A DNA stretch of 20,375 nt from Candidatus Krumholzibacteriota bacterium. Its GTDB lineage: Bacteria; Krumholzibacteriota; Krumholzibacteriia; Krumholzibacteriales; Krumholzibacteriaceae. Below the pieces are notes generated by a model. It had not been told where the DNA came from. It made no database searches and saw only the letters and a list, made by a program, of their open reading frames with translations. How positions within the stretch are numbered: position 1 is the first letter of the stretch; each line of letters starts with the position of its first letter. This document shows, piece after piece, positions 5,824 through 14,972 of the stretch. The stretch is taken from NCBI GenBank assembly GCA_016932415.1, contig JAFGCX010000032.1:1-20375 (forward strand), read 5' to 3'. The position numbers were made by a program, and so were the translations under genes.

Positions 5824-6612
5824 CTACTGGGTCAGGGGAACGACTTCGCCCGCGTACTTGATGTACTCGACCGTGGCTTTCCCGCCGATCTTCGTGCTGG
5901 TCCTGTAGGATCTCGGGAAAAGGGAGGCCGAAGGAGCTCCGCCATAGCTCAGGCCGCCCGAGAAGAAAAGATTCTCGGCTATCAGGGCCTTGAGTATGAG
6001 TTCCATGCCGGGGTTCACCTCTTCAAGGATGAACCTTACGTTTGGAAGAGTCACTATATAAGCCATTTCAGGCTCGCCCTTGTAATCGACTTCTTCATAT
6101 GTAAGTTCAGCCTCGGGAACCTTGAACTTCGTGTCGTAGATCTCTTTGAGTTTCCTCGTGGAGGAATCGATCCCGTTGATGTCCACCTCTTCGAACTGTC
6201 CCTCGTCGAATCCCCTGAGAAGAGTCGGGAATGTCGTGGAGTAAGGCTCGCCTACTTTGATTGTATCGCCGCCGACAACAAAGAAATCAATCGCGAAGTG
6301 GACGCGGGGCGAAAAGACCTTTCTCGTACCCGCGACAAACTTGCGGCCCTCAACCAGCTTGACCTTGTTCTCGAGGTCTTCGCCCGTGAAGAACTCGATC
6401 AGGTTGCCGTCGCGGACCAGTCCTACATTGCCGTTGACGGCAATGAATTTGGGCGTATCGAAGCCGAACTTGAAGCCCGGACTGGTAATGTTTGCGTGCC
6501 CCGCTTCCCTGATAGTGACCATCTGATAGGTCTCATCGAGCGAACCACCGCAACCAGCAAATACTCCAGTAATAAGGGCCAGGATCAGAACGGATGAAAA
6601 GAACTTCGACAT
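5824..6612 (-). CDS. Predicted lipoprotein of unknown function
   Basis: Not a family I recognise. The 262-aa product has a lipoprotein signal peptide with lipobox FAGC (Cys21) and no residue after it that blocks lipidation by the +2 rule (Gly at +2). The mature part is mixed and beta-rich, with regularly spaced aromatic residues (e.g. GFKFGFDTPKF, VHFAIDFFVVGG) and a Gly/Ser stretch near the end (FFSGGLSYGGAPSASLF). There are no further cysteines after CGG. GGAG eight bases before the ATG supports the start. A candidate promoter precedes it and a strong terminator follows, so it is probably transcribed alone. It could be an envelope structural or binding protein; nothing points to an enzyme. 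Confidence 0.75.
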   Translation of the reverse strand: MSKFFSSVLILALITGVFAGCGGSLDETYQMVTIREAGHANITSPGFKFGFDTPKFIAVNGNVGLVRDGNLIEFFTGEDLENKVKLVEGRKFVAGTRKVFSPRVHFAIDFFVVGGDTIKVGEPYSTTFPTLLRGFDEGQFEEVDINGIDSSTRKLKEIYDTKFKVPEAELTYEEVDYKGEPEMAYIVTLPNVRFILEEVNPGMELILKALIAENLFFSGGLSYGGAPSASLFPRSYRTSTKIGGKATVEYIKYAGEVVPLTQ

Positions 6613-6802: not shown

Positions 6803-7786
6803 TCACCTCTCGACCGATTTGCCCTTCTTTCTGAATTCCTTGTCGGTAAGTGGCAGATCGTATTGATAAAAAAGGTCCCTGATCCTCGGATCGATTTCAT
6901 ATTTCTCAGAAGTGAGCTGGATCTGTGACAGAAGGCCGCTTGTATATTTTCCTCCCGGACTGATCTTGAGGGTGATAGTACCTATATACTGCCCGAGCCC
7001 TCCTGTCGCCAGCAGAAGGGTCCTTCCCGCCATTTTCTGCTCTTTGATAAGTGGTTTTCCATGACCCACAAGCGCGATATCGAAATCCTGGATCCGGGTG
7101 AGCAGATCCTCCGTCCTATCGACGCCCATATGGCTTAAAAGTATGAGGAAATCGGCTTCACGCTTCATTGCGGGAAGGATTTTTTTCAGCGTCTTCTCGG
7201 CTGGTTCGACCCGGAATCCGCTCTTGTCGATATACCCGGGGAAACGTACCGCTTCATCAAGTACACCTGTTATCGCGATCCTGATTCCCCCCTCATACTC
7301 CTTTACGACAAAACTTTTTCCAAAGAGCGGCTCCCCCGTCTCCGTGCTGATGATATTTGCCGATACGATATCAAAAGAGGCATTCTCCGCCAGGGCCTGC
7401 AGAAAAGGCAACCCGAATATAAATTCAAGTTCGCCGGGAGTAAAGACATCGAGCCCCATTATATTGAAACTTTCAAAAGTGATCTCCGCTTCACTCTGCA
7501 GATAGGCAAGATCAAGGCTGAAAGCGTCTCCCGCGTCGATTATAAGAAGGTTCTTGGAACTGGCTCTGACACGATCGGCATATGACGTCCTCCTGCCGAG
7601 GCCGCCCACATCGAGGACTGTGCATCCGCAGGATCTTACCTTCCCGAGCATATCGCTTGAAAAGAGTATTGTTATTTCAGTCGACCCCGACAGTTTTCTT
7701 TTTTTCTTTTCCGATCCGGAACAGCCCACCTGGCTGATGAGCATGGCAAGAACCAGTGTCGCTGTAACAATTTTTCTAATATCCAT
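6803..7786 (-). CDS. Lipoprotein related to 5'-nucleotidase/metallophosphatases, active site degenerate
   Basis: The 327-aa product starts with a lipoprotein signal (lipobox QVGC, Cys22). The body follows the UshA-type metallophosphatase outline: ILFSSDMLGKV, LLIIDAGD, GLDVFTPGELEF, LLSHMGVD, LVGHGKP. It carries an SCGC...GGLGRR segment (52-66) like the PCGC...GGLARR of a subgroup of periplasmic nucleotidase relatives. Several metal ligands are changed: DxH is D45-M-L47, GNHE is GELE (118-121) and GHxH is GHGK (241-244). Asp45, Asp87, His219 and His242 remain. Catalysis by the usual two-metal route is therefore doubtful; a binding role is possible. The frame opens upstream with GTG (7843), but 7786 gives the signal peptide directly; its Shine-Dalgarno is weak. 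Divergent from the TPR lipoprotein gene. Confidence 0.8.
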   Translation of the reverse strand: MDIRKIVTATLVLAMLISQVGCSGSEKKKRKLSGSTEITILFSSDMLGKVRSCGCTVLDVGGLGRRTSYADRVRASSKNLLIIDAGDAFSLDLAYLQSEAEITFESFNIMGLDVFTPGELEFIFGLPFLQALAENASFDIVSANIISTETGEPLFGKSFVVKEYEGGIRIAITGVLDEAVRFPGYIDKSGFRVEPAEKTLKKILPAMKREADFLILLSHMGVDRTEDLLTRIQDFDIALVGHGKPLIKEQKMAGRTLLLATGGLGQYIGTITLKISPGGKYTSGLLSQIQLTSEKYEIDPRIRDLFYQYDLPLTDKEFRKKGKSVER

Positions 7787-7860
7787 ATGAAATATCCGCT
7801 TTCCATAAAGGCTTTTCTTTTCCAGATCCTTTCCGGAAACCACCGGCCGATCCCTCAGTG

Positions 7861-8076: not shown

Positions 8077-9201
8077 ATGGAGATCAGAAAATATTCGAAG
8101 TATCTTTTTCCACTTATCATACTTGCGGGGCCGATCATCTCCATGATCATCCTTGCCGGATGCGCCGGGACGCCACCGTCTGGCGCTGTAACCGGCCAGA
8201 AAGAAGATGCCGGAAAGGTCGTCGAAAATGGACCAGGGCTTCTTTCTGCAGGAGCAGTCATTTTTGACGCGACCATCGCGGCGCAGAACAGTGAATATGA
8301 AAAAGCCGAGGAGATGCTGACTGGACTTCTTGGCAGGGAACCGGACAATCTGGAAGCTATGAGGCTCCTCGCCAGGGTATATACGGCTGACGGAGACAGG
8401 AAATCGGCCACCCGGACATGGGAAAGAGTCTATGAACTAGATCCCTCCGATCCTGACGCGGCGTACGAGACGGGGACGATGCTTCAACGTGAAAAGAGGT
8501 GGAGCGAGGTCAGGACGGAAATGATGAAGACGGAATCTCTGGGAGGCGCCGACAGCCGGCACTTCCTGCTTATCGGCCGGGCCGGCCTCGAACTCGGTTA
8601 CAGGGATGAAGCGGAAGTCTATCTGCTCAAAGCGGGAAACCTTGAACTTGCCACAGCTCTGCTCGGCAAACTTTATTATGGAAGAGGCAAGACAAAGAAA
8701 GCTGAAGCGGCCTTTAAAAAGACACTGGGGAGAAATCCAGATAACTACATAGCCAACCTTCACCTCGGATATATAAGCTTCAACAGCGGCAGAAAAGAAG
8801 AAGCTTTGGGATATTACGCGAAAGCCCATAAGTCTGATCCGGATGACCCCCTGGCCTGCCTGAGCCTGGCCTCTCTGCACGAAAAGATGTCTCATGATGA
8901 AGCAGCGATAAAATATTACAAAAAGGCTCTCGGCCTGAAAAATATCCCGCGCGCGGAAAAACAGAAAGTCTATGTCTCGTTGAGCAAGCTGTTTATGAAG
9001 ACCGGGCGGACAGACGATATCTTCGCGCTTGTGCGCGATGGGATCGAAGAATTCCCCTCCTCGGGGGGACTTTATTTCTACTGGGGAGAAGCATTGCTCA
9101 AGCAGGGAAGAAAAACTGAAGCGAAGGAAAAATACAAAAAAGCGTCTCATGACCCCACATGGAAGAAACATGCTCTTGCAAGGTTTCACTCGATAAGGTA
9201 A
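8077..9201 (+). CDS. TPR-repeat lipoprotein
   Basis: The 374-aa product has a long signal peptide ending in lipobox LAGC (Cys29), followed by a Gly/Pro-rich linker. From about residue 65 to 360 it is a run of tetratricopeptide-like helical pairs, clearest at 91-124, 190-221, 224-255, 258-289 and 331-356, with the usual A-x-x-x-[YF] and P-[DN]-[ND] ends. TPR superhelices bind peptides or proteins, so a scaffold or ligand-sensing role in the envelope is likely. GTG at 8056 is in frame, but ATG 8077 is chosen because GAAAGG stands six bases before it. The stop is 11 bp from the sensor kinase start, so the two are co-transcribed and may act together. Confidence 0.85.
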   Translation: MEIRKYSKYLFPLIILAGPIISMIILAGCAGTPPSGAVTGQKEDAGKVVENGPGLLSAGAVIFDATIAAQNSEYEKAEEMLTGLLGREPDNLEAMRLLARVYTADGDRKSATRTWERVYELDPSDPDAAYETGTMLQREKRWSEVRTEMMKTESLGGADSRHFLLIGRAGLELGYRDEAEVYLLKAGNLELATALLGKLYYGRGKTKKAEAAFKKTLGRNPDNYIANLHLGYISFNSGRKEEALGYYAKAHKSDPDDPLACLSLASLHEKMSHDEAAIKYYKKALGLKNIPRAEKQKVYVSLSKLFMKTGRTDDIFALVRDGIEEFPSSGGLYFYWGEALLKQGRKTEAKEKYKKASHDPTWKKHALARFHSIR

Positions 9202-9212
9202 ATATTCTATCC

Positions 9213-10553
9213 ATGGAGAAAGAATCAGCGGCAACTGTACTCAGAAACGCCTGGATGATGATTGGGATACTGATCATCATCGCTCTCCTTATGTCTATCA
9301 ACTGGTATTATTACAACCAGATCCGTTCAGGTCTTGACAGGGAGTTTTCGACCCGCCTGCGATCTCTCGCTTCGATGGTATCAGCTTCAGTCGATTCGAA
9401 CGCGATGGCTGAACTTTCAGATCAGATCGATATGTTTGGGATCAGCGAGGAACCACCGGCTATATTCCACGATTACAGCAAGGAGTTCTCTCTTTCCAAT
9501 ATAACCGTACTGCGCGAAGACGGCACGATCATCATCTCGCTGCACCCCGGACTCTTCCAGCCTGGCGATATATATCCCCTCTGGAATATGGATTATCCTG
9601 CGATAATAAAAGCGCTGGAGGGGGATCCTTCCTCGACAGGACTGGTCCGCTCCGAGCAGGGCGAATATTTCAAGGCGGGATATGCTCCGATCCCTCCAGG
9701 ATCGGAGAGTTCGGGACTGGTCGCGGCAGTCGAAGCCAACGCCGCCTTTCTTGAAGGGATTGAAGACCTCAGGAAGATCCTGATCGCTTCGACCTCGGTC
9801 TCAATCGCCGGATTGCTGTTTTTCATCCTCTTCATCATAAAAGCGACGAGGTCCATTTTACGGACAAGAGAGTCTCTCTTTCAATCGGAAAGGCTCGCTT
9901 CGATGGGCAGGATGGCCGCCGGCATAGCGCATGAGATACGCAACCCCCTGTTCATAATAAGGAGCAGCGCCGAAAAACTGCGGCGCACCTGCCCCGGTTC
10001 GGCAAAAGATATCGATGAGTTCATCCTCGAAGAAACAGACAGGCTTGACGGCATACTGACAGACTATCTGGCCTTCGCGAAAAATGAAGCTACCAGCCGA
10101 TCACTCTGCGATCTGGCGTTGATCATCAACAGATCGATAAGACTCATCGAAGAAGGAACGGCCCAAAGACATGCGATTATCGAATACAGTTCGTCAGTTC
10201 CAGAGTCTCCCTTCGTCTGCGACGAGAAAAAGATTCAGCAGGCGCTTCTCAATATCCTGTTAAACGCAAGGGAAGCGTCGGAAGAAGCCCGGGCGATAGA
10301 GGTCTCCCTCGAAACAGATGGGGTAAATTATACGATCCTGTTCAGGGACCACGGATCGGGGATCGGCAGAAAAGAGATGTCGATGATATTCGAACCTTTC
10401 TTCACCACAAAACGAAACGGCAGCGGTCTCGGTCTGTCTATAGCGAAAAGGATTATCGAGGATCACCATGGGACAATCGATATGGAAAGCACTCCCGGAC
10501 TTGGTACGGCTGTAACAGTCAGGCTTCCAGTGCCAGACAACGATGGAGAATAG
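9213..10553 (+). CDS. Membrane sensor histidine kinase, NtrB/ZraS-type
   Basis: A 446-aa inner-membrane kinase. Transmembrane helices at about 15-31 and 190-210 enclose an extracytoplasmic sensor domain of about 160 aa (mixed alpha/beta, possibly sCache/PDC-like). There is no evident HAMP domain. The HisKA box SERLASMGRMAAGIAHEIRNPL puts the phospho-acceptor at His240. The ATPase shows an N box (NILLNAREA, 347-355), a G1 box (DHGSGIG, from Asp379), FEPFFTTK and a G2 box (GSGLGLSI). The frame is open from 9159, but 9213 is used because the earlier part lies inside the TPR gene. No strong Shine-Dalgarno is visible, which suggests coupling to the TPR gene. It is separated by three bases from the sigma-54 activator gene, its obvious partner. 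Confidence 0.92.
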   Translation: MEKESAATVLRNAWMMIGILIIIALLMSINWYYYNQIRSGLDREFSTRLRSLASMVSASVDSNAMAELSDQIDMFGISEEPPAIFHDYSKEFSLSNITVLREDGTIIISLHPGLFQPGDIYPLWNMDYPAIIKALEGDPSSTGLVRSEQGEYFKAGYAPIPPGSESSGLVAAVEANAAFLEGIEDLRKILIASTSVSIAGLLFFILFIIKATRSILRTRESLFQSERLASMGRMAAGIAHEIRNPLFIIRSSAEKLRRTCPGSAKDIDEFILEETDRLDGILTDYLAFAKNEATSRSLCDLALIINRSIRLIEEGTAQRHAIIEYSSSVPESPFVCDEKKIQQALLNILLNAREASEEARAIEVSLETDGVNYTILFRDHGSGIGRKEMSMIFEPFFTTKRNGSGLGLSIAKRIIEDHHGTIDMESTPGLGTAVTVRLPVPDNDGE

Positions 10554-10556
10554 AAG

Positions 10557-11921
10557 ATGAGCAGAATACTGATTATCGACGATGAGATCAAGATCACGAT
10601 GCTTCTCTCCGAACGTATCGCCAGTGAGGGATTCGATGTAGAGACCTTTACAGGCGCTGAAGAAGCCCTGATCCGGATAACAGAAGGCAAAGCAGATATT
10701 GTCCTCTGCGACCTGCGCCTCGGCGGTATGGATGGCCTGGAGCTTCTTCGCCAGACGAAGGTAAGATCCCCCGGCACTGATTTCGTGATGATGACTGCCT
10801 ACGCTTCAGCTTCGACGGCAGTGGAAGCGATGCGCGAGGGGGCTTACGAGTACCTTGTAAAACCTTTTCAGATGGATGAAGTAATCCTTCTGCTGAAAAG
10901 AATCCAGGAAAGACGCGATCTGGTAGTAGAGAACCTCGCCCTGCGTGAAAAGGTTTCGACCACGGGATCTGAGACGAGACTGATCGGCGCGTCCCCGGTA
11001 ATAAATGATGTCAGGGATGTCATTTTGAAAGTGGCCCCGACAGATACGCCGGTATTGATATTCGGAGAAAGCGGGACGGGAAAGGAACTTGTCGCCGCGG
11101 AGATCCATAAGGCAAGCAGGCGTTCTTCCAACCCTTATATAATTTTAAACTGCGCCGCGATACCCGACACGCTTATCGAAGGTGAACTTTTCGGTTTTGA
11201 GAAGGGAGCCTTTACGGGGGCGTCGCAGAAAAAACCGGGGCAGTTCAAACTGGCTGACAAGGGGACGATCTTTCTCGATGAGATCGGCGAGCTCCCCGTC
11301 GCCCTGCAGGCGAAAGTTCTCAGGGCTATCGAGCTGGGAGAATTTCTTCCCCTTGGCAGTTCGAGGCCGGTCAGAGTGGATGTCAGGGTGATAGCGGCGA
11401 CAAACAGGGATCTTGAAAAGATGTCGGCTGAAGGATCTTTCAGAAGCGATCTTTATTACCGGCTCAATGTCTTCCCGGTCAGGATCCCTCCTCTGAGGGA
11501 CAGGCCCGAAGACATTCTTCCAATCGCCGAGGATTTCATAAGAGGCAGGGCGGAACATTTGACCCCCCTGGGTAAAGATGTGATTGAGAAACTGTCTGGA
11601 TACGCCTGGCCGGGAAATGTACGGGAATTGAGGAACATCCTTGAACGCGCGACGATCCTCGCCGGATCGGGACCGATAACGACGGCTCACCTCTCTCTCG
11701 GCGCCGGGCAGGCTCTTTCCTCTCCAGAGGATGCCCTTGGGTCGCTTATCGGTAAAAAATCGCTTCCTGAGATCGAACAATCACTGATCGAACTTGCCAT
11801 AAAACGATCGGGCGGAAATAAAAGCAAAGCAGCCTCTATCCTCGGAATAACCAGAAGGACTCTTTACGGGAGGCTCGAAAAATACGGGCTTGCCTCCGGA
11901 CCGGCCGAAGAAGATGAATGA
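10557..11921 (+). CDS. NtrC-family sigma-54-dependent response regulator
   Basis: A 454-aa activator with three domains. The receiver (1-120) has Asp8/Asp9, phospho-acceptor Asp52, Thr80 and Lys102. The AAA+ domain (about 141-370) has Walker A GESGTGKE (170-177), the sigma-54 contact loop GAFTGA (217-222), Walker B TIFLDEIGE and WPGNVREL. The C-terminal Fis-type helix-turn-helix reads NKSKAASILGITRRTLYGRL (421-440). The GAFTGA motif is intact, so it should remodel sigma-54 polymerase when phosphorylated by the kinase next door. GGAG lies about eight bases before the ATG. The nearest gene downstream has a sigma-54 promoter, the likely target. Related to ZraR/AtoC-type regulators; the signal is unknown. 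Confidence 0.96.
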   Translation: MSRILIIDDEIKITMLLSERIASEGFDVETFTGAEEALIRITEGKADIVLCDLRLGGMDGLELLRQTKVRSPGTDFVMMTAYASASTAVEAMREGAYEYLVKPFQMDEVILLLKRIQERRDLVVENLALREKVSTTGSETRLIGASPVINDVRDVILKVAPTDTPVLIFGESGTGKELVAAEIHKASRRSSNPYIILNCAAIPDTLIEGELFGFEKGAFTGASQKKPGQFKLADKGTIFLDEIGELPVALQAKVLRAIELGEFLPLGSSRPVRVDVRVIAATNRDLEKMSAEGSFRSDLYYRLNVFPVRIPPLRDRPEDILPIAEDFIRGRAEHLTPLGKDVIEKLSGYAWPGNVRELRNILERATILAGSGPITTAHLSLGAGQALSSPEDALGSLIGKKSLPEIEQSLIELAIKRSGGNKSKAASILGITRRTLYGRLEKYGLASGPAEEDE

Positions 11922-11958
11922 TATAGTGAATCGATGCACCCTACGGTCCATCAAAACT

Positions 11959-11986
11959 GAACGATATAGTACAATATACCTTGTTC
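11959..11986. promoter_or_regulatory. Possible upstream activator site for the sigma-54 promoter
   Basis: GAAC (11959-11962) and GTTC (11983-11986) bound an imperfect inverted repeat (GAACgAtaTA against GAACaAggTA on the other strand). Its centre is about 100 bp before the predicted sigma-54 start, where NtrC-type activators usually bind. The octamer GATATAGT occurs inside it (11963-11970) and again at 11920-11927, 43 bp apart, about four helical turns. The DNA between site and promoter is A/T-rich, suited to bending. The binding protein is inferred. Confidence 0.35.
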
Positions 11987-12048
11987 GAGGAGATCATATT
12001 TAACCTTAATGTATTGTATTATTTACAGATAAGGTCTTTTGTGCCTCA

Positions 12049-12064
12049 TGGCATACCCTTTGCG
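12049..12064 (+). promoter_or_regulatory. Sigma-54 (RpoN) -24/-12 promoter
   Basis: TGGCATACCCTTTGCG matches the consensus TGGCACRNNNNTTGCW at 10 of 12 defined positions, with the invariant GG (12050-12051) and GC (12062-12063) exactly 10 bases apart. Transcription should start about 12 bases after the GC, near 12075, giving a 5' leader of about 32 nt to the ATG at 12107. It lies in the 185-bp gap directly downstream of a gene for an NtrC-family activator. Confidence 0.88.
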
Positions 12065-12106
12065 TGTTATTATTTCCGAAAGTTACTGAAAGGAGCAAAT
12101 AACACC

Positions 12107-13381
12107 ATGAACATTAAATACTGTAAAACAATGATCATACTGCTCGTCGTGGCAGTGACCTCCACCTTTGCCGGAGCGGCGTTCGCGCAGATCGCCGATA
12201 CCGAGGCTACCCGCAGCGCGGTTGAAAAAACGAGCGAAGTGATCAGGGAAGCGCAATCGATCATAGCCGACAGCCGAAGCCAGATAGCCCGGATATCCCT
12301 TGACAAGGCGATAGCGCTTCAGGAAAGAGCGTTGAACCAGTTCGAAGCTCATCACAATACCTTCGCGTACAAATATACTATGGAAGCGCGAAAGGAAGCG
12401 TGGCACGCGATCGCCCTGGCCAGAGATGACGCCCGCATAGAGGAAAAACTGACCAATCTCTCCGAACATACCAGGGATAAACTTCTCAGGCTCCGGGAAC
12501 GCGTGACGGAGACCGGCGTCAGGGATGAACGCCTTTTCGGGCTGATGAGCAGGTCCCGTGATCTTCTCGAAGAATCTCATATGAACGCCAACCAGCTCAG
12601 AAACCAGCTCGCCATGAATCTAGCGGAGAACGCGAGAAAGCTCGCCGTACGCGCGGAGGAACGTTTCAGAAAGGTCCTCGACCTTAAGGAGATGAGCGAA
12701 CGGCGTCTGATGTTGATGGAAAGACTCCTCATAAGAACGCGTGAAAGGGTAGATCAGAACGGCACCGAAAATGACAGGGTAAGGATGGAGCAGGCTGTCA
12801 GATCACTTGAAAGAGCGAAAGAGATGATAGCCGAGGGTAAGTACCAGGCGGCGCGCCTCTCGATCGAGAAATGTGAAAGGATCCTTCGCGGTTTTGCCCG
12901 CCAGTTCCCGAACGGAGAAAACGGGATCGCCGAGAACGGTCTTGAAGAAGCGTACAGGCTTCTTGAAAGGGCCAGAGAACATTTCGCGGACGCTTCCGAT
13001 CCGACCGGCGTCGTTCAGAGATCCGAGGCGCTTCTCGAGAGAGCAAGGAAAGAATTCGCCAATAACCGCGCTGACGAGGGTAAACGCCTGATCATAAGGG
13101 TGCGTTCGATGCTGAGAGAGGCCGTTCAGTCAGGCGGATCTGAAATCGAACCTGGGCAGGCGGAAAAGAATATCGAAACGGCGATGCAGGTCAGGGATAA
13201 TATCCAGGCCGATCTTGCCGAGTGCGGCGCGGAAGGAGCGCGTAACCTCTTCGAACGCGCGAACAGGCATCTTGACAATGCTGTCGGATTTTTCGAGAAG
13301 GAAAGATACGGCCAGGCGGATGCCGAGGCAAGGATAGCGAGAAATATCTACCAGCGGGTAAGAGAAATATGCGCCGATTGA
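12107..13381 (+). CDS. Secreted all-helical repeat protein, first gene of the sigma-54 operon
   Basis: I do not recognise a family. The 424-aa product has a Sec signal peptide cleaved after about residue 27 (AAFA|QIA). The rest is almost entirely helix-forming, rich in Ala, Arg, Glu and Leu and poor in Pro and Gly. Degenerate repeats are visible: LERA-x(8)-YQAA-x(4)-EKCERIL (about 234-260), LERARKEF...GKRLIIRVRSML (310-336), FERANRHL...ADAEARIARNIYQRV (382-418), with a first copy near 63-104. The units resemble TPR-like or coiled-coil hairpins. Only four cysteines, none in a metal motif. The frame opens at 11981, but ATG 12107 is chosen because it has AAAGGAG upstream and the signal peptide, and the earlier codons would include the promoter. 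A periplasmic scaffold or adaptor is the likeliest role. Confidence 0.82.
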   Translation: MNIKYCKTMIILLVVAVTSTFAGAAFAQIADTEATRSAVEKTSEVIREAQSIIADSRSQIARISLDKAIALQERALNQFEAHHNTFAYKYTMEARKEAWHAIALARDDARIEEKLTNLSEHTRDKLLRLRERVTETGVRDERLFGLMSRSRDLLEESHMNANQLRNQLAMNLAENARKLAVRAEERFRKVLDLKEMSERRLMLMERLLIRTRERVDQNGTENDRVRMEQAVRSLERAKEMIAEGKYQAARLSIEKCERILRGFARQFPNGENGIAENGLEEAYRLLERAREHFADASDPTGVVQRSEALLERARKEFANNRADEGKRLIIRVRSMLREAVQSGGSEIEPGQAEKNIETAMQVRDNIQADLAECGAEGARNLFERANRHLDNAVGFFEKERYGQADAEARIARNIYQRVREICAD

Positions 13382-13383
13382 AG

Positions 13384-13710
13384 ATGAAGCCCATATTCAT
13401 CATCCTGATCGCTGTTTTTTCAGCCTGTGCTTCAACATCTGATCTGAAAAGGCCAGCTGCCGATCAACAGGATCTGTATCCGGCGGCCGCAGATTCCATT
13501 TCAAGGACAGACTACGAGGATCTCTTCGTAGAGATCCACTCCGGGTTTATCGCCGAGATCGGAAACGAAAACGATAAAGAGAAGAACCCTGTATTGATAG
13601 AAATATGGACTATTGTCAAAATAGCCGAAGATGCTTATCTTCGTGGAGACCCCCTGTTAGCGATAAAGCTTCTGAGTGAAGCGGAAATATTACTCAGGCA
13701 GACTCCTTGA
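13384..13710 (+). CDS. Small lipoprotein of unknown function
   Basis: A 108-aa product with a lipoprotein signal MKPIFIILIAVFSACAS (lipobox FSAC, Cys15), a polar linker, and a C-terminal helical part (WTIVKIAEDAYLRGDPLLAIKLLSEAEILL) that looks like a single TPR-like hairpin. It starts two bases after the stop of the helical-repeat gene; ATG 13369 is in frame but lies inside that gene and spoils the signal peptide. No clear Shine-Dalgarno, so coupling is likely. Its stop overlaps the next start. Probably a partner of the proteins on either side. Confidence 0.72.
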   Translation: MKPIFIILIAVFSACASTSDLKRPAADQQDLYPAAADSISRTDYEDLFVEIHSGFIAEIGNENDKEKNPVLIEIWTIVKIAEDAYLRGDPLLAIKLLSEAEILLRQTP

Positions 13711-14972
13711 TGACTGGAAACAAAAGATCCCCTCATATCGTTTTAATAATGATCCTGATCTCTCTATGCGGCAGCATCCTCGCCTTCCGGTACGCCAACG
13801 CAGGCACTCAGCTGCGCTCATCCCTTCTTGCCGGATATGATTCATACATCGACAGGTTTACCATTCTGGAAGACGATACGACTGAAGCGATAGAAGAATT
13901 CTACCTGTCTCTTGCCAATTCGCTCGACTGGAACAATGATCTTTCCCGTTTTGATATCTCCAACACCTTCAAGTTTGGAAATCAGACGGTCAATGAGAAT
14001 CTTGTCACCGGATTCACCGCGGGATCGCGAAAATCCCTCCTGTTCGAATTGAGGAACAACCTGAGACTGAAATATTTCCGGGAAGGCAGCGACTACACAT
14101 TCGGAAACGATTACGCTCAGTCGAACCTGCACATGAAGATCAGCAGGTATTTCGAAGATCGGTTGAAGATCGCGTCAAAGACAAGGGTCGAACTTGTCGA
14201 TTTCAGCAAAAGGACATCGTTCGATTATGATTACCGCTATTTTGACACCGGGTTGGAGATGGAAAAAGGATCGTATTTCGATGATTTTTTCCGCGTCGGC
14301 TTTTCCGCTGGATACAGGGATGTCCCCGACTCGACAGCTCTGAGTTTCAACCGATTCCAGACCGATATCGAATTTCATCTTGTGTCTGACATGAAGCGGA
14401 AGACGGAACTCTCGATCTCAGCCGACAGGAGAGAATACAGGGAGAATACCAGAAGTTCCAGCTGGATCATCTATTCTTTCGCGGATTATTCGATCATCCA
14501 GTCTGATAAGACCAGATACGATCTGAGAATCGAATCGGAGATCTATCTCTACGACGATCCATCGACTACCTTTTTCAACACGCATTTTCTCAGGGCGGGG
14601 ACAGGCGCGACCTGGTCAGCGGGAGAGTATATCAATATCAGTATAGAACCCCGCCTGGCGGGGATGTTCTGCGATGAGTTTCCGGAAGAGCAGTATCGCG
14701 AAGGCTCGATCGTCCTCGGACTGGAATTGTCAAGGCACGACAGGTTCTGGATGAGTTGTACGTACGAACCTGGCCGAAGGGATTATCTGCTGGAGGAAAA
14801 TGATATCTATTCCGACTATTATCTCAACAGGCTTTCGCTGATGGGTAATGTCTCATTGCAGGCAGAGACTTCGTTGAACCTTTTTATTACCCACGACCCT
14901 GAACGCCACTCGAGAAGGGATGACGACTTCTCGCTGACGATGATCTCCGCCACTTTATCCAGGTCGTTCTGA
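13710..14972 (+). CDS. Predicted outer-membrane beta-barrel protein
   Basis: A 420-aa product with a signal peptide cleaved after about ANA (residues 29-31). The mature part consists of alternating polar and hydrophobic strands rich in Tyr, Phe, Arg and Asp (for example YRYFDTGLEMEKGSYFDDFFRVGFSAGYRD) and ends in Phe (TLSRSF), the usual terminal residue of Bam-inserted barrels. It has about the length for 14-18 strands. No TonB box, plug or known porin family seen. The ATG overlaps the previous stop as TGATG (13708-13712), so expression is coupled to the small lipoprotein. Last gene of the sigma-54 operon. Transport or surface-anchor roles are open. Confidence 0.75.
   Translation: MTGNKRSPHIVLIMILISLCGSILAFRYANAGTQLRSSLLAGYDSYIDRFTILEDDTTEAIEEFYLSLANSLDWNNDLSRFDISNTFKFGNQTVNENLVTGFTAGSRKSLLFELRNNLRLKYFREGSDYTFGNDYAQSNLHMKISRYFEDRLKIASKTRVELVDFSKRTSFDYDYRYFDTGLEMEKGSYFDDFFRVGFSAGYRDVPDSTALSFNRFQTDIEFHLVSDMKRKTELSISADRREYRENTRSSSWIIYSFADYSIIQSDKTRYDLRIESEIYLYDDPSTTFFNTHFLRAGTGATWSAGEYINISIEPRLAGMFCDEFPEEQYREGSIVLGLELSRHDRFWMSCTYEPGRRDYLLEENDIYSDYYLNRLSLMGNVSLQAETSLNLFITHDPERHSRRDDDFSLTMISATLSRSF

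Follow-up and report, generated by a model that had tools for sequence, protein, structure and literature searches.

A conserved unit of sensor kinase, activator, putative sigma-54 promoter and target operon in Krumholzibacteriota, encoding exported proteins without family matches

A sensor kinase, a sigma-54 activator, a -24/-12 promoter and an operon for exported proteins of no known family lie together in the 20,375-nucleotide stretch of Krumholzibacteriota DNA analyzed here (hereafter, the window), and our comparisons support the conservation of this arrangement as a unit across the phylum. What is new is the presence of inverted repeats upstream of the promoter of HEL, the first target gene, and of the same repeat before HEL-OMP in other phyla. 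The initial annotation had proposed six genes and the promoter, all of which we found, as follows.

8077..9201, + strand: lipoprotein with TPR repeats (by Pfam TPR families; lipobox LAGC) that opens the regulator operon and is not always present
9213..10553, + strand: transmembrane sensor histidine kinase (HisKA, HATPase_c), with a periplasmic sensor at about residues 33-188, weakly Cache-like
10557..11921, + strand: NtrC-family response regulator, sigma-54 activator (Response_reg, Sigma54_activat, HTH_8)
11935..11950, + strand: enhancer-like dyad 1, TGCACCCTACGGTCCA, 10/12 consensus bases of TGTACC-N4-GGTACA
11958..11973, + strand: enhancer-like dyad 2, TGAACGATATAGTACA, 9/12 consensus bases, 23 bp downstream of dyad 1
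12049..12064, + strand: -24/-12 promoter, TGGCATACCCTTTGCG (TGGCAT-N5-TTGC)
12107..13381, + strand: HEL, predicted exported all-alpha helical-repeat protein of 424 aa, type I signal peptide, ATG start at 12107
13369..13710, + strand: LIP, small lipoprotein, alternative start possible at 13384
13710..14972, + strand: OMP, predicted beta-barrel of the outer membrane with 20 strands in the model, ending in Phe

The start of OMP had been read as a TTG three bases earlier, and we adopted the ATG at 13710 instead. Two minus-strand genes stand divergent to the TPR gene, namely a UshA-like (seleno)protein relative (6803-7843; a match to NF041198 that stays below cut-off) and a lipoprotein that fits no known family (5824-6612); both stay beside the module in families f1 and f2 and partly in f8.

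Profile searches of 80 genomes of the phylum found HEL in 56 and OMP in 58, as a rule at one locus each. Most relatives that share the operon and bear a phylum name are assigned to Candidatus Krumholzibacteriota. Of 52 loci with HEL, 51 have the activator gene immediately upstream of it and 47 have OMP immediately downstream; the sole locus lacking OMP that has enough sequence to judge (L163) carries in its place the gene for LA, a lipoprotein treated below. It had been asked whether the six genes stay together in related genomes, and the activator-HEL-OMP core does so across the phylum, whereas the TPR lipoprotein and LIP do not. The former accompanies ten f1/f2 relative loci and is absent from some other f1/f2 loci, and LIP was found in families f1, f2 and f8 only; judged by this distribution, neither is a core component. 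Because the flanking genes differ from family to family, the conserved unit is the operon, not the neighborhood. In several f6 genomes, a methyltransferase with a CPVCGW-like motif adjoins OMP (L054 10085-10897, with homologs in L053, L057 and L058).

The activator matched PF00072, PF00158 and PF02954 (receiver, sigma-54 AAA+ and Fis-type HTH) above cut-off, its GAFTGA motif is intact as had been claimed, and the domain sets of both kinase and activator are complete. Its HTH is nearly constant among the sampled orthologs (GNKxxAAxxLGITRRTLYxRL). The window's genome encodes about 20 sigma-54 activators. The sensor domain of the kinase looks weakly Cache-like: sCache_3_2 and dCache_1 each gave weak matches in 5 of 41 sensors (best E 0.001-0.002), the window's own kinase had no Cache-family match in the family search, and a profile search against PDB sequences returned nothing significant. 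With its activator domains, target promoter and upstream candidate sites, the system can be placed by sequence in the NtrC-family sigma-54-dependent class.

The near-consensus -24/-12 element described earlier is present at its place in the window and conserved among relatives. Every f1/f2 relative tested has one in the activator-HEL gap, with a score that at most 1 of 300 shuffles reached. Most loci of the remaining families have one as well once over-long HEL starts are corrected, as at L053, L058 and L059; in family f5 the element is weak. The window's genome contains 26 strict sigma-54 sites versus 3 in the reversed control, and at the corresponding distance the other 25 strict promoters reach at most 8 of the 12 repeat bases, which argues that the repeat is specific. 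These other 25 (L097-L122) stand mostly before exported proteins or lipoproteins; the genes behind them include one resembling type IV pilins (L112) and one resembling PilM (L111). Sigma-54 tends to govern the bacterial exterior (PMC3162934); in the literature collection searched, no paper treats Krumholzibacteriota together with sigma-54.

The TGTACC-N4-GGTACA repeat occurs in one or two copies, mostly 90-150 bp upstream of the -24/-12 element. In f1/f2, all 17 of 17 activator-HEL gaps contain two repeats, which lie 89-115 bp ahead of the -24 element at a constant spacing of 23 bp, with a pair score reached by at most 0.2% of shuffled sequences. Elsewhere in the phylum, a single good repeat is present at most loci, and a further copy often stands 22 or 31 bp from it; the window's two copies are degenerate (10/12 and 9/12). 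We infer that the repeats are candidate enhancer sites for the linked activator, a pairing supported by their recurrence across families together with the conserved HTH.

A search of 387 genomes found OMP homologs in ten genomes outside the phylum. The complete kinase-activator-HEL-OMP series recurs there at L174-L176, and also at L203 and L204 (phylum of G144). In f14 and f180, which belong to two other phyla, HEL-OMP lies apart from the regulator genes, but HEL is still preceded by the repeat and by a -24/-12 element; the unlinked HEL-OMP of f14 has two repeats (10-11/12) with its -24/-12. The genomes concerned encode elsewhere a kinase-activator pair with a similar HTH, which is likely orthologous: in G085 the unlinked activator scores 67 bits above the runner-up, and in G272 it is less clear which pair is the counterpart. 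Relatives carrying the targets without the kinase and regulator had been named as grounds against a single circuit; f14 and f180 are such relatives in gene adjacency, but not in the regulatory site. For nine other-phylum promoters, the per-site shuffle p ranged from 0.026 to <0.0002, and the Fisher combination of 2e-16 is overstated, because related loci are treated as independent in it.

OMP homologs also stand without HEL, in f11 and f159, and the barrel therefore need not work with HEL. The gene next to OMP in these two lineages is amidohydrolase-like: at L179 (7927-9126) and L180 (7579-8814), both reverse-complemented, and at L181 (8868-10094), such a gene follows the HEL-less OMP homolog each time. 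In f14, a lipoprotein of a different family (LB) follows OMP (L178 4705-5634, and L177). Another arrangement was seen in G230 (L206 4306-8892), where a similar kinase-activator pair follows two genes for TPR lipoproteins; HEL is absent there, and the gene immediately downstream resembles alanyl-tRNA synthetase.

The circuit had been described as self-contained, and this did not hold, because LA, usually unlinked, is usually preceded by the same inverted repeat and a -24/-12 element. LA is a lipoprotein of about 350 residues present in 69 of the 80 phylum genomes, including the window's own; in f3, in f8 and in part of the f6 genomes it adjoins the module or lies close to it, as it does in another phylum (L176), there with its own promoter and repeats. 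Among 50 LA upstream regions, the repeat exceeded shuffles at p <=0.05 in 41, and it did not in 9, among them the region from the sister genome of the window (L244). The usual distance from the repeat to the -24/-12, an element whose strength varies, is 91-115 bp, and another copy is often found about 21 or 31 bp further upstream. In the window's genome, TGGACCTTTATGAGCA, TGGACGATATGGTACA and CGGCATCGCTCCTGCA stand ahead of LA at about 265.9 kb of contig C10 (p 0.025). LA matched no Pfam or NCBIfam family and gave nothing significant in a profile search against PDB sequences; its C-terminal half contains short G-x-F-x-G-x-W-like repeats. We also considered co-loss, in which LA would lose its repeat where HEL and OMP are absent; G036, G037 and G073 fit this idea, G071 does not, and we dropped it.

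The regulon is probably small, because a scan of 1.19 Mb of a relative, G014 (29% of the genome), found strong repeats and a strong -24/-12 together at the HEL promoter only, the remaining three matches being at control level. Searching 20 genomes for the 23-bp repeat pair, we found that the placeable matches with 0-1 mismatch were the HEL operon and that 2-mismatch matches were at control level. A one-target regulon, as this pair search would suggest, was ruled out, since the LA repeats use spacings of about 31 or 21 bp.

The operon products had been claimed to be exported and to include no known output protein, and our profile searches agree: neither HEL nor OMP reached a Pfam or NCBIfam family cut-off, and the matches of LIP were below threshold. 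In prediction, OMP qualifies as a barrel protein by its signal peptide, amphipathic strands and final Phe, and its structure model has 20 strands (pLDDT 90, pTM 0.81). The cross-phylum alignment showed 20 amphipathic segments at the strand places of the model, with 59 of 60 inserted columns in loops, while the narrower alignment A4 resolved only 15 segments, some of them merged. Taking the termini as periplasmic, as in known barrels, extracellular loops are better conserved than periplasmic turns, and within the strands the outer half is better conserved than the inner. The predicted barrel has 20 strands, with conserved residues as the lining of its outer mouth. A profile search of OMP against PDB sequences gave nothing significant. 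By structure, the model matched AlgE, OprD/Occ, chitoporin, BtuB and MtrB (VIA-align Z 17-20, 6-11% identity), and the AlgE match (Z 19.7, 309 residues, rmsd 4.1) was tied with others. OMP shares the barrel fold and the C-terminal Phe with these proteins and differs from them in belonging to no Pfam family and in its 20 predicted strands; the matches to AlgE, OprD, BtuB and MtrB reflect the common fold only. In 2018, it was noted that solved structures included no 20-stranded bacterial barrels (PMC6340704), and Treponema TprC/TprD have been modeled as 20-stranded (PMC9001972).

The HEL model is all-alpha (pLDDT 88, pTM 0.54), confident in local structure and uncertain in inter-repeat geometry. 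FliS, DUF4398, YfdX and SMBP for HEL, like DUF4844, O_Spanin and BamD for LIP, were below cut-off or matched few members, and we treated them as compositional. Among solved structures, HEL resembled only designed helical proteins, a uranyl-binding protein and, partially, spectrin-like folds, as with Borrelia BB0323 (Z 10.7, 155 residues); such matches are uninformative for helical repeats.

The Zra and Cpx systems likewise feature an all-helical exported protein. It could accordingly be proposed that the kinase senses envelope damage or metal, that HEL is a ZraP/CpxP-like periplasmic chaperone or sensor-modulator, and that OMP and LA serve repair or barrier functions. Such an envelope-stress response fits the small regulon, the all-helical exported first product, and the place of ZraS and ZraR among the best-scoring models. 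We nevertheless consider it unlikely, because the sensor looks Cache-like, a type usual for small ligands, HEL is far larger than ZraP or CpxP and matches neither, and an OMP most conserved at its outer mouth fits binding of a ligand or partner better than barrier repair. The co-regulated lipoproteins could instead suggest surface display, with OMP and HEL forming a Slam-like translocon that carries LA and/or LIP to the surface. SlipAM, the Slam barrel family, did match OMP weakly in 2 of 21 members (best E 0.002); these matches are far from secure, and the window's protein gave none. Moreover, OMP consists of a signal peptide and barrel with no TPR match, the Slam barrel has 14 strands against the 20 predicted here, and LA is present in genomes without detectable OMP, such as G071, all of which makes this display role quite improbable.

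Both ZraSR-ZraP and the Prs system had been named as similar in logic, which holds for PrsTKR, logically the closest system, and by score the unit lies outside both. PrsT-PrsK-PrsR is the regulatory system of the exopolysaccharide-associated PEP-CTERM proteins (Haft et al. 2006, PMC1569441). Both systems combine a TPR lipoprotein, a membrane kinase and an NtrC-type activator with a conserved upstream motif and a -24/-12 element, and scattered single genes for envelope proteins are among their targets. However, the window's proteins fell far short of the Prs models (TIGR02917, 92.8 versus a cut-off of 312.2 bits; TIGR02916, 83.5 versus 300; TIGR02915, 361.7 versus 502.6), the Prs motif contains TTTACA (PMC1569441) rather than TGTACC-N4-GGTACA, and the unit described here is outside Proteobacteria; inspection by eye of the termini of HEL, LIP, OMP and LA showed no PEP-CTERM signal. 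The Prs-like wiring, recalling control of exopolysaccharide-associated proteins (PMC1569441), and the presence of AlgE among the best structural matches would suit polymer or exopolysaccharide export, with OMP as an AlgE-like exit porin, HEL and the TPR lipoprotein as a periplasmic scaffold and the synthase elsewhere. No synthase or glycosyltransferase was seen in the operon or its conserved neighborhood, and the barrel matches do not separate AlgE from OprD, BtuB or MtrB; we hold this export role to be the least probable of the readings weighed here.

ZraS-ZraR/ZraP resembles the unit in setting a kinase and a sigma-54 activator over an exported helical protein, and differs in score (ZraS, 170.7 versus 479 bits; ZraR, 352.5 versus 760), in that HEL has no family match, and in that an outer-membrane barrel and lipoproteins are co-regulated here. 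AtoS and AtoC are the best-scoring models for kinase and activator, though far below cut-off (198.8 versus 646 and 423.1 versus 714 bits). A possible likeness to AtoSC, to DctB-DctD and to other ligand-sensing NtrC-family pairs is the sensor, which looks weakly Cache-like here. DctBD controls a transporter, as this unit would; in contrast to the AtoSC and DctBD systems, which act on enzymes or on transport across the inner membrane, the target here is an operon for an outer-membrane barrel.

According to the above-described analysis, we favor, with somewhat better than even confidence, a pathway in which a periplasmic signal would turn on a small regulon for a channel in the outer membrane and for its partners, one periplasmic and the others lipoproteins. 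Its regulatory chain, deduced from conservation, is very probable: the membrane kinase would sense a periplasmic signal and phosphorylate the NtrC-type activator, which may bind one or two TGTACC-N4-GGTACA repeats and drive sigma-54 RNA polymerase into transcription at the -24/-12 element. The regulon would comprise the HEL-(LIP)-OMP operon and LA elsewhere in the genome, and its products would reach the envelope as the OMP barrel, the all-helical periplasmic HEL and one or two lipoproteins. Most likely, they would assemble into a channel complex of the outer membrane that is made on induction, in which the conserved outer mouth of OMP may serve substrate recognition and HEL may be its periplasmic partner; for this assignment of the products, with its complex formation and transport, we put the chances at about even. 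More tentatively, and somewhat short of even, the unit may be an undescribed outer-membrane machine, in which a new-family 20-stranded barrel works with its helical protein of the periplasm and with a lipoprotein under the same control, and the enhancer code of this machine would have been kept with the activator across several phyla even where the target has moved from the regulators.

For uncultured phyla with almost no known regulon, these data provide a concrete regulator, a DNA code and a target list. It is unusual for a transcription-factor site to stay with one target across phyla, and this allows the regulon to be tested in surrogate hosts. With the OMP family, bacterial outer-membrane barrels would gain a class of 20 strands, the size that was noted in 2018 to lack a solved structure (PMC6340704), and the conservation at the outer mouth of OMP points to a definite ligand.
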